DNA from: Bradyrhizobium sp. CB82
GTDB taxonomy: Bacteria > Pseudomonadota > Alphaproteobacteria > Rhizobiales > Xanthobacteraceae
Direction: 5' to 3'
Assembly (NCBI RefSeq): GCF_029714405.1
Contig: NZ_CP121650.1
Span: forward strand, 6,267,001-6,331,000
DNA length: 64,000 nt
Positions 43,442 through 47,160 of this stretch are shown piece by piece. Positions within the stretch are counted from its first letter, which is position 1. Each line of letters starts with the position of its first letter. The position numbers and the translations under genes were made by a program. The notes under the pieces were generated by a model. It ran no database searches. It was not told where the DNA came from and was given only the letters and a program-made list of their open reading frames with translations.

Positions 43442-43834
43442 ATGAGCAAATTGCAAGAGCGCGAAACCGTACCCGATCTCTACAATCTTTTTCTCGCCGC
43501 CGTGTTGTTCGTTTCACCCTGGCTGTTCAGGCTGACGAACGAGCCGGGGAAGGTCGATCTCTGGATCACCGGCGCCGTCATCGGTATTGCCTCCCTCGCC
43601 GCGATCATCGCCTACCGCGACTGGGAGGAATGGGTGAACGTCCTCATGGGGGTCTGGCTCATTGCCTCGCCCTGGCTACTGGGCTTCCCGCATACCCGCG
43701 CCATGCACATCAGCATCGGAATAGGCATCGTCATCGCACTCCTCGCTCTGCTCGATCTCTTCCTCCACTACGAGAAGAGACATCCGGAGGACGATGTCAC
43801 GGTGGAATCCGGCCAGGAAAAGGCGCACCGGTAA
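43442..43834 (+). CDS. SPW-repeat membrane protein
   Basis: 130 residues from an ATG with GGAGGAGAT upstream. Four transmembrane helices in two repeats, each with a SPW motif (FVSPWLFRL near 22 and IASPWLLGF near 76). SPW proteins are small membrane proteins of unknown role found in many Proteobacteria. Stands alone before the decayed sulfur cluster. Confidence 0.88.
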   Translation: MSKLQERETVPDLYNLFLAAVLFVSPWLFRLTNEPGKVDLWITGAVIGIASLAAIIAYRDWEEWVNVLMGVWLIASPWLLGFPHTRAMHISIGIGIVIALLALLDLFLHYEKRHPEDDVTVESGQEKAHR

Positions 43835-43941: not shown

Positions 43942-44631
43942 TTGCATGCCTTGGGGCCTCATCGGTGCATCGCGGCCGCATCGCTGGCCCTGCCCGCGCT
44001 GGTGCGCGCGCAGGGCGCTACGCGCGTCGTCGTGGTCGGCGGCGGCTTTGGCGGGACCGCCTGCGCACGAGCGCTGAACCGCAGCGCAGCGAATCCTGAG
44101 GTCACGCTGGTCGAGCCCAACAGGACCTTCACCGCCTGCCCGTTCAGCAACGAGGTGATCGCGGGCCTGCGCGAGATCGAGGCGCAGCAGTTCGGCTATG
44201 AGAAGATCGCCTCCGATGGCGTGAGGGTCATCGCGCAGGCCGCAACCGCGATCGATCTGCAAGCGCGGCGCGTCACGCTGGTCGATGGCTCATCCTTTCC
44301 CTATGACCGTCTCGTGCTCTCGCCGGGCGTCGATTTCCATTTCGACGGCCTGCCCGGCTATGACCAAGCCGCAAGCCAAAAGATGCCGCATGCCTGGAAG
44401 GCCGGTGAGCAGACGCTGCTCCTGCGCAGACAGTTGGAGGCCATGGATGATGGCGGCGTGGTCGCAATCGCGGTACCCGCCAATCCGTCGCGCTGCCCGC
44501 CGGCGCCTTACGAGCGCGCCAGCCTGATCGCGCATTATCTGAAAGCGAAGAAGCCGCGCTCGAAGGTTCTGATCCTGGACGCCAAGGACTTCCCGGAAAA
44601 CCGCTTCACACTTTTCCGGATCATGCTTTAG
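43942..44631 (+). pseudogene. fccB: Truncated flavocytochrome c sulfide dehydrogenase flavoprotein (FccB)
   Basis: The N-terminal 220 residues are clear: FAD-binding [17 protein letters not shown], then [13 protein letters not shown] and [19 protein letters not shown]. An intact protein has about 420 residues. The frame leaves the family after LILDAKD and continues as 12 residues coded by a genomic repeat (cggaaaaccgcttcacacttttccggatcatgc, 44594-44627) to a stop. The Tat signal at the start is also damaged. Oxidises sulfide to sulfur when intact, with a cytochrome c partner (fccA, not seen). Confidence 0.85.
44594..44630. repeat. Partial repeat copy truncating fccB
   Basis: About 37 bp match the right end of the repeat seen at 755-831 and 52816-52946 (ggaaaaccg-ttcacacttttccggatcatgct). 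It sits exactly where the FccB sequence is lost. Confidence 0.8.
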
Positions 44632-44640
44632 GACAGGGAA

Positions 44641-45097
44641 TGCCAAGCACACGCCGACAATTTTTGGGCTTCACGGTCGCCGCCGGGACGATCCCCATCG
44701 CCGCGATCCGCCCGCTCGAGGCGACGCCCGCGATGCTCGGCATGGCGATCCGCAATGTCGTCGGCGAAGCACAACTGCGCACCGGCAAGGTCAGGCTCGA
44801 CATTCCGCCGCTGGTCGAGAACGGCAACACCGTGCCGATGATCGTCAGCGTCGCGGCCCGATGACGGTAACTGATTACGTCAAGAGCATCCACGTCTTCA
44901 ATGAAAAGAATCCGCAGCCGAATATCGGCAATTTTCATCTCGGCCCATGGGCCGGGCGTGCGCAGGTCTCGACCCGCATCCGGCTCGCGGACAGCCAGAA
45001 GGTTGTCGCGATCGCGCGGCTATCAAACGATTCCTTCTGGCAAGTCGCAGCCGATGTCGTCGTGACGCTCGCCGCCTGCACCGAGGAGGTGAACTGA
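44641..45097 (+). pseudogene. soxY: soxY with a one-base frameshift
   Basis: The first frame (74 residues, to 44864) starts with a Tat-like RRQFLGF signal and runs through GEAQLRTGKVRLDIPPLVENGN to VSVAAR-stop. The second frame starts at 44861 with MTVTDYVKSIHVFNEKNPQPN and runs to CTEE near the end. Adding one base at about 44859 (gcggcc-cgatg) restores VSVAAPMTVTDYV, the normal SoxY sequence. SoxY carries sulfur intermediates of thiosulfate oxidation. The usual C-terminal swinging-arm GGCG is not seen in this short ending. Confidence 0.85.
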
Positions 45098-45210
45098 TGG
45101 CTTCCGCCCTGATCAACGTTCCAGCACGAGCGAAGCGCGGCGATGTCATCGAGATCCGGACGCTGACCTCGCACATCATGGAGACCGGATTTCGCCGCGC
45201 GGCGGCCGGC
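45097..45210 (+). pseudogene. soxZ: 5' fragment of soxZ
   Basis: Starts in the TGATG overlap with soxY and reads ALINVPARAKRGDVIEIRTL and SHIMETGFRR, the first 35 residues of SoxZ (normally about 105). It is then joined out of frame to soxA. SoxZ partners SoxY. Non-functional. Confidence 0.8.
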
Positions 45211-45751
45211 GACCCGCGAGACCATGAAGGGCGTCGCCGCGCGCTATCCCGCCTTCGACAAGACGCAGGCCCGCCCGGTCACGCTCGACCAGCGCATCAA
45301 TCTGTGCCGCGCCAACCATCAGCAGGCAACAGCGCTGCCTTACGAAAGCCGCGACCTGCTCGCGCTCGAAGCCTTCGTCGCGCGCCAGTCGCGCGGGGCC
45401 GCGATCACGGCCGCCGACGATCCGCAGCTCAAACCGTTCGTCGAGCAGGGCCGCGCGCTCTTCATGCGGCGGCAGGGGCAGTTCAACCTCGCATGCACTA
45501 ATTGCCATGACGACAACTACGACAAGCATCTGGCGGGCGCCCCGGTGACGCAGGGACAACCGACCGGCTATCCGCTCTATCGCCTGGAATGGCAGACGCT
45601 GGGATCGCTGGAGCGCCGGCTGCGGAGCTGCATGAGCGGGGTGCGAGCCCAGGCCTATGACTACGGCGCGCCCGAGCTGGTCGCGCTCGAGCTCTATCTG
45701 ATGGCGCGGGCGCGCCGCATGCCCATGGAAAGCCCCGCCGTGCGGCCTTGA
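45211..45751 (+). pseudogene. soxA: 3' fragment of soxA
   Basis: From ETMKGVAARYPAF to the stop it is the C-terminal two-thirds of the SoxA cytochrome: haem site CTNCHDDNYDK and the active-site Cys in LRSCMSGVRAQ are intact, ending MPMESPAVRP. The N-terminal part, signal peptide and any upstream ribosome site are missing, because the deletion that removed them also removed the rest of soxZ. No soxX or soxB follows. Confidence 0.82.
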
Positions 45752-45834: not shown

Positions 45835-47160
45835 GTGGCTGACCATCGTATCTCGCGCCGCACGCTTTTGCAGGGGACCGCCGCGGCTGGCGCGCTCAGC
45901 CTGACCGGATTTCCGGCGCACGCCGAGGTCAATTGGAAGAAATATGCCGGGACCAAGCTGGAGGTGATCCTCGCCAAGGGTCCGCGCGGCGACAACCTGC
46001 AAAAGAACATCAAGGAGTTCACCGACCTCACCGGCATCCAGGTCGAATCCGAGCAGATTCCCGAGCAGCAGCAGCGCCAGAAGTGCGTCATCGAACTCAC
46101 CTCGGGGCGGCCGAGCTTCGACGTCGTGCATCTCAGCTATCACGTGCAGAAGCGGCAGTTCGAGAAAGCCGGTTGGCTCGCCGATATCACGCCCTTCATG
46201 AAGGATCCGACGCTGACCGCGCCCGATCTCATCGAGAGCGATTTTTCGGCCGCCGGCCTGCAATACGGCAAGAACGACAAGGGCCAGATGCTGTCGCTGC
46301 CCTGGTCGGTCGACTATTTCATCCTCTACTACAACAAGGAGCTGTTCCAGAAGAAGGGCGTCGCGGTGCCCAAGACGCTGGACGAGATGGTCGTCGCCGC
46401 CGAGAAACTCACCGATGCCAAGGAAGGCACTTATGGCTTTGTCGGGCGCGGCCTGCGCAACGCCAACATGACGTTGTGGACCAACTTCTTCCTCGACTAT
46501 GGCGGTGAATTCCTCGATGCCAAGGGCAACATCCTGACTGACGGTCCCGAGGCCATCGCAGCGACGAAGCTCTACCAGACGCTGCTGACCAAGGTTGCCC
46601 CGCCCGGCGTCGCCGGCTTCAACTGGATGGAGTCGATGGCCTCGTTCACGCAAGGACGTTCGGCGATGTGGATCGACGGCGTCGGCTGGGCGCCGCCGCT
46701 GGAGGATCCGGCCGCCTCGCGCGTGGTCGGCAAGGTCGGCTACACCGTCGTGCCTGCCGGGCCGAAGGGACAATATTCGGCCACCTATGGCGACGGCCTC
46801 GGCATTGCCGCCGCGAGCAAGAACAAGGAAGCGGCCTATCTGCTCTGCCAGTGGGCAGTGTCCAAGACGCAAGGCGCGCGGCTGTTGCAGGCCGGCGGCG
46901 GCGTGCCGTTCCGCAACTCGATCCTGAACGATCCCGAGGTCCAGAAGGGCGTCAAGATGCCGCCGGAGTGGCTGCAATCGGTGATCGATTCCGCCAAGAT
47001 CAGCAAGCTCGGCCTGCCCGTCGTGATCCCGGTCGCCGAATTCCGCGATCTCGTCGGCGCCGCGCTCACCGCAACCCTTTCCGGCGCCGATCCCGCGACC
47101 GAGCTGAAGAAAGCCCACGAACAGTACCGGCCGATCCTGGAGCGTAGCGAAAAAGCGTGA
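45835..47160 (+). CDS. ABC transporter sugar-type solute-binding protein
   Basis: 441 residues from a GTG start with GGGAGG six bases upstream. Tat signal peptide (SRRTLLQGTAAAGALSLTG, cleavage about 35), so it is exported folded. The mature protein is a family 1 extracellular binding protein (glycerol/maltose type) with GPRGDNLQKNIKEFTDLTGI near 50 and FVGRGLRNANMTLW near 200. Ligand unknown. First gene of a three-gene unit with the two permeases. Confidence 0.9.
   Translation: MADHRISRRTLLQGTAAAGALSLTGFPAHAEVNWKKYAGTKLEVILAKGPRGDNLQKNIKEFTDLTGIQVESEQIPEQQQRQKCVIELTSGRPSFDVVHLSYHVQKRQFEKAGWLADITPFMKDPTLTAPDLIESDFSAAGLQYGKNDKGQMLSLPWSVDYFILYYNKELFQKKGVAVPKTLDEMVVAAEKLTDAKEGTYGFVGRGLRNANMTLWTNFFLDYGGEFLDAKGNILTDGPEAIAATKLYQTLLTKVAPPGVAGFNWMESMASFTQGRSAMWIDGVGWAPPLEDPAASRVVGKVGYTVVPAGPKGQYSATYGDGLGIAAASKNKEAAYLLCQWAVSKTQGARLLQAGGGVPFRNSILNDPEVQKGVKMPPEWLQSVIDSAKISKLGLPVVIPVAEFRDLVGAALTATLSGADPATELKKAHEQYRPILERSEKA

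Follow-up and report, generated by a model that had tools for sequence, protein, structure and literature searches.

A sulfur-oxidation cassette recently broken by three deletions and a frameshift, and lost repeatedly in related lineages

Introduction

The thiosulfate-oxidising Sox system is known as the Kelly-Friedrich type. In Bradyrhizobium, sox locus I has the composition soxTRSVWXYZABCD and the second SoxY is soxY2; the available part of that description adds that, of the two soxY homologues of B. diazoefficiens, thiosulfate oxidation requires only soxY1, the one in locus I (PMC5748708). As for the fate of disabled genes, the accessible text on Salmonella reports that young pseudogenes are quickly removed by deletional processes and that 346 of 378 pseudogenes carried a single inactivating mutation (Kuo and Ochman, 2010; PMC2916853).

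Here we analyse a stretch of 64,000 nucleotides (the window; G000:C1:6267001-6331000) from a 10.14-Mb genome in 2 contigs, whose nearest named relatives are Bradyrhizobium. A preliminary description had read in it a decaying cluster for sulfide and thiosulfate oxidation with four damaged genes. We compared the window with intact copies in relatives and with a genus sample of 265 genomes, one per species and G000 included. In the parts of the literature available to us, we found no description of recurrent loss of the iorAB-fccB-soxXYZA cassette reported below, which does not prove that none exists.

Results

The intact cassette in relatives

The intact order, as read by tblastn in locus L038 of genome G017, is iorA-iorB-fccB-soxX-soxY-soxZ-soxA, followed by a sugar ABC transporter. 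The preliminary description had assumed fccB-soxYZAX, but soxX sits between fccB and soxY, and iorAB lies in front. The closest copies, L038, L061 (B. iriomotense NBRC 102520) and L062 (Bradyrhizobium sp. Ec3.3), served as references. The names iorA and iorB are labels given here to the 2Fe-2S and molybdopterin subunits, neither of which passed an NCBIfam equivalog cut-off. In profile searches SoxX, SoxZ and SoxA of the intact cassette exceed the cut-offs of their models, and FccB of G017 does so for both FCSD_central and FCSD-flav_bind. The intact G017 SoxY is the "AACIE arm" paralogue of TIGR04487 (224 bits vs a cut-off of 172) and stays under the cut-off of TIGR04488, the GGCGG carrier (98.7 bits vs 125). 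Its C-terminus reads TLAACT[ED]E, not the GGCGG carrier arm, in 82 of 83 loci, the exception being the frameshifted L065; the 83 probably include at least two duplicates (L039/L078 and L041/L097 are probably the same contigs), and L137 has no readable soxY. The seven genes are contiguous in G017, where a soxB-sized gene would not fit. We infer that soxY2 of B. diazoefficiens is the SoxY of this cassette.

All seven genes are open in 70 of 81 cassette loci (tblastn, with end tolerances of our own setting), a set made up of G078 and 80 named loci reached through the SoxA remnant, a route that favours loci in which soxA is kept. Six of the 11 others are interrupted by contig ends (L086, L103, L106, L107, L119 and L127), three have one apparently frameshifted gene each (L065, L104 and L129), L137 is shattered, and in L146 (G078) iorB and fccB are broken. 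Across the genus sample, fccB is matched at E<=1e-20 in 233 of the 265 genomes; in nine of these (G000, G189, G006, G211, G115, G075, G127, G078 and G141) the match has an E-value above 1e-160, and some of the nine may be remoter homologues. In a 12-taxon FastTree analysis the sox pieces group the window with L061, and the ABC genes group it with L038 and L062.

Three deletions and one frameshift in the window

Compared with L038 by blastn, and by tblastn, the damage to the window cluster consists of three deletions and one frameshift. The existence of intact syntenic copies in relatives means that the region is not a chance assembly of sox-like pieces, and the lesions are absent from the relatives examined.

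At the first deletion junction (43967..43970, unstranded), sequence just upstream of iorA is joined to about codon 17 of fccB, with a 4-base overlap of the matches on the two sides. The left match ends at L038:2913 (L061:4337) and the right match starts at L038:5678 (L061:7101); about 2.76 kb, holding iorA, iorB and about 16 fccB codons, is gone. What remains of fccB, the flavoprotein gene of flavocytochrome c sulfide dehydrogenase, is found by tblastn at 43969..44589 on the plus strand and covers residues 17-223 of 424. The open reading frame at 43942-44628 matches Pfam FCSD_central (2.4e-28), of which the remnant retains positions 1-60 of 116; FCSD-flav_bind is absent. The second deletion, spanning L038 6300 to 7360, removed fccB from residue 224 and the whole of soxX. 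Its place is occupied by 50 bases. Most of them come from a dispersed palindromic repeat, a fragment of which (44590..44632, plus strand) provides the stop of a 229-aa frame. No match to iorAB or soxX is left anywhere in the window (tblastn, E<=0.01).

On the plus strand, soxY begins with a 5' part at 44640..44858 (residues 1-73), which scores 21.5 bits with Pfam SoxY, below the cut-off. One base is missing at 44855..44856 relative to L038, L061 and L062, and this frameshift divides the gene into frames of 74 and 78 aa. The 3' part (44858..45094, plus strand; residues 74-152) ends in TLAACTEEVN and matches TIGR04487 at 6.7e-37, its 126.5 bits being under the whole-protein cut-off of 172. A soxZ remnant identified by tblastn (45097..45212, plus strand) keeps about residues 1-38 of 106 and runs into the third junction (45212..45215, unstranded), where about 440 bp of soxZ and soxA are gone and the two frames are joined out of frame. 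The soxA remnant (45215..45751, plus strand) holds residues 100-277, counted in a SoxA of 277 residues with its upstream extension (the more probable start gives 259), and matches TIGR04484 at 5e-56 with 189 bits vs a cut-off of 110. The first 99 residues, with the signal peptide and the first haem motif, are missing; CTNCH (45494-45508) and the active-site Cys of RSCMSG (45629-45631) are retained.

Overlaps of the matches at the window's own junctions are 0-4 bases. When a 231-base query across junction 3 was searched in the 265 genomes, 238 of which gave any match, the junction was unbroken in G000 only, among the matches listed; the best match outside G000 (E=3.6e-49) covers one side only, and any contiguous copy should appear high in the ranking. 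These comparisons bear out the preliminary description on fccB, said to be cut at LILDAKD by a repeat, on the one-base soxY frameshift, on the truncation of soxZ with loss of the soxA N-terminus in the same deletion, on the preserved SoxA motifs and on the decay of a sulfur-oxidation cluster as such. Its four damaged genes are real but an incomplete count, the iorAB deletion and the loss of soxX having been overlooked.

The cluster is flanked downstream by an intact gene for an ABC sugar transporter binding protein (45835..47157, plus strand; 97% to G017), which lies outside the decayed part. Just upstream, an SPW-repeat membrane protein gene (43442-43831) is also present in L061, at 77% DNA identity; a small part of it matches in L038 and nothing in L062, L063 or L080, so this intergenic stretch varies between species.

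The dispersed repeat

The genome has a single further exact copy of the 39-mer at 44593-44631. At up to 3 mismatches it occurs in 28 places, both exact copies included, and the reversed pattern gives 0. A first search for the repeat, with 40 of 385 candidates scored, had returned at least 41 other places, all inside the repeat part of the query. None of 13 scanned loci has the core of the repeat (15 bases, one mismatch allowed) between fccB and soxY, and an older repeat copy sited between fccB and soxX was rejected for that reason. In two of these loci, a core with one mismatch lies immediately ahead of fccB (L061:7044 and L081:6952).

Other sox loci in the genome

A separate open locus at C1:8.89 Mb encodes SoxX, SoxY (GGCGG), SoxA and SoxB above their cut-offs, together with a SoxZ-like frame and a SoxAX-binding-like protein below cut-off. 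The sole SoxB over cut-off in the genome, at C1:8894193, lies within it. The second sox cluster that the preliminary description proposed to look for is thus present, as a soxXYZA-soxB locus. No second intact AACIE-type cassette was seen among the three SoxY and two SoxA places of the genome. The third SoxY place (G000:C1:2848887-2849219) codes for a longer SoxY-SoxZ-like protein and adjoins a frame that, from reading the sequence, we label metallo-beta-lactamase-like. Redundancy special to this genome was considered and rejected, as SoxB exceeds its cut-off in 255 of the 265 genus genomes. Of the "sulfide/thiosulfate oxidation" first proposed for the decayed cluster, sulfur oxidation stands and thiosulfate is doubtful, given the AACIE-type SoxY, the lack of room for soxB and the separate soxXYZA-soxB locus.

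Recency of the loss

The window's sox pieces carry 16 nonsynonymous (N) and 30 synonymous (S) private codon changes (pN/pS 0.18). The same stretches in three intact relatives have 7/22, 11/25 and 13/46 N/S (pN/pS 0.11, 0.15 and 0.10), and the window's ABC genes 8/41 (0.06). By Fisher's test the window sox pieces do not differ significantly from the three intact relatives (p=0.25); against the window ABC genes, p=0.058. The neutral fraction of the window branch is estimated at 0.076 (0-0.24), and a fully neutral branch is worse by 16 log units. By part, the fraction is 0.19 (0-0.64) for fccB alone and 0.015 (0-0.19) for soxYZA, where pN/pS is 0.12. The surviving pieces therefore show little relaxation, and the loss of the cassette in this lineage is recent, an estimate that rests on few changes. 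The preliminary description had likewise called the loss recent, and both these counts and the intact syntenic copies support it. Its further proposal that the layout would allow the lesions to be ordered fails, because the lesions do not overlap. Ordering them by per-gene private changes was also rejected: the sole clue, 9N/11S in fccB vs 7N/19S in soxYZA, is not significant (p=0.23).

Losses in other lineages

We chose 16 outlier genomes, took the stretches of 8 and compared 7 of these with the window. Cassette remnants with differing breakpoints are present in G141 (Bradyrhizobium sp. Gha, L137), G055, G036, G034 and G042; G141 and G034 have their nearest intact relative in common (L094) and still differ in breakpoints. 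At the site, any match in G009 is no longer than 34 bases and G007 has no match, which we infer to be loss rather than a cassette that was never present. Bradyrhizobium sp. Gha keeps about seven fragments, which are as similar to intact relatives as those relatives are to each other, except for the soxZ piece (79-81% vs 88-91%). Four other losses resemble single deletions. Neighbouring matches overlap by <=4 bases at most junctions, by 14 in G141 and by 8 in G034; with overlaps mostly <=4, we make no general claim of strong microhomology.

Some further observations concern breakpoints and gene content. The soxA right breakpoints of G000, G055 and G141, spotted post hoc, fall within about 25 bases (L038 8371, 8378 and 8394), an interval that corresponds to about 45208-45231 of the window, and those of G034 and G042 (8534 and 8548 in L038), likewise post hoc, within 15 bases. 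G042 has an iorAB-long match on C171:3891-6550 as well as a scar on C14:13727-14534 in which a piece of iorA abuts the soxA end. In G144, G154 and G081, iorAB and the ABC transporter lie on different contigs, with no fccB-soxA match among the matches listed. The iorAB genes may be able to exist apart from the sox genes.

Discussion

The window very probably holds what is left of an accessory iorAB-fccB-soxXYZA cassette that appears to have been dispensable, was recently lost through three deletions and a frameshift, and has been lost recurrently. Three illegitimate deletions, one of them accompanied by a dispersed-repeat fragment, and a one-base frameshift would have disabled it. Its dispensability may be explained by the separate locus, which keeps GGCGG SoxY, SoxX, SoxZ, SoxA and SoxB, and the repeated losses across the genus point the same way. 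Lacking signal, haem and flavin parts, the surviving pieces are unlikely to yield a working exported protein.

A sequencing or assembly error that mimics a broken cluster is very improbable. The soxY lesion involves just one base, and lone frameshifts are also apparent in L065, L104 and L129, but deletions of about 0.4-2.8 kb, three in number and one with a repeat fragment, in a 2-contig genome are hard to ascribe to such error, and other assemblies contain similar scars whose breakpoints differ. We consider it just as improbable that truncated SoxA or FccB remnants are still in use under selection. The low pN/pS (0.18; soxYZA 0.12) and the two SoxA motifs kept would fit such a function, and with the soxA remnant scoring above its family cut-off a residual role is formally conceivable. 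A low ratio is, however, expected for a branch mostly spent intact; moreover SoxA has no signal peptide or first haem left, and FccB has lost the signal and the flavin part at its C-terminal end; the soxY frame is broken in two, and among the matches listed no other genome shares junction 3.

It is unlikely, if less so, that all the deletions come from one complex event, by template switching with repeat-derived filler, instead of accumulating sequentially. Such an event might leave behind what is seen here: few substitutions beside three deletions, one join with a repeat fragment exactly at it, and a second lineage, Gha, whose roughly seven fragments have diverged no further than intact genes except for the soxZ piece. 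Yet overlaps at the window junctions are only 0-4 bases, the frameshift stands apart, single deletions seem to account for four other losses, and the young pseudogenes of Salmonella are deleted rapidly without such events in the available text of that study (PMC2916853). This rapid deletion, as far as that text describes it, is enough to explain the pattern in the window and in Gha. With similarly low confidence, one may suppose that the cassette site is prone to clustered deletions, one or a few replication accidents, by template switching with filler copied from a dispersed repeat, shattering the block before substitutions accumulate, as seen in G000 and Gha. If true, this would give independent cases in two lineages and soxA right breakpoints within about 25 bases in three.

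The main reading, recent loss of a cassette that appears dispensable, can be set beside described systems. This genome resembles the described sox locus I in keeping a locus for GGCGG SoxY, SoxX, SoxZ, SoxA and SoxB, and the decayed cassette differs from the available description of locus I by its AACIE SoxY, the lack of soxB and the carriage of iorAB and fccB (PMC5748708). Its SoxY belongs to the SoxY-related AACIE arm proteins of TIGR04487, from which the window copy differs in being split by a frameshift. Unlike the mostly single inactivating mutations in the accessible part of Kuo and Ochman (2010; PMC2916853), the seven-gene block of the window has three large deletions and a frameshift.

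The window cluster reveals no new kind of system. It is ordinary gene loss of a known kind, and several related lineages have shed this gene set on separate occasions. What stands out is that two lineages combine multiple large deletions with few substitutions. The site shows an accessory sulfur-oxidation cassette mid-loss; in related species it is found whole or entirely deleted. It thereby provides a natural series for the role of the AACIE-type SoxY cassette, for the timing of its dispensability and for the speed at which a disabled gene block is erased.
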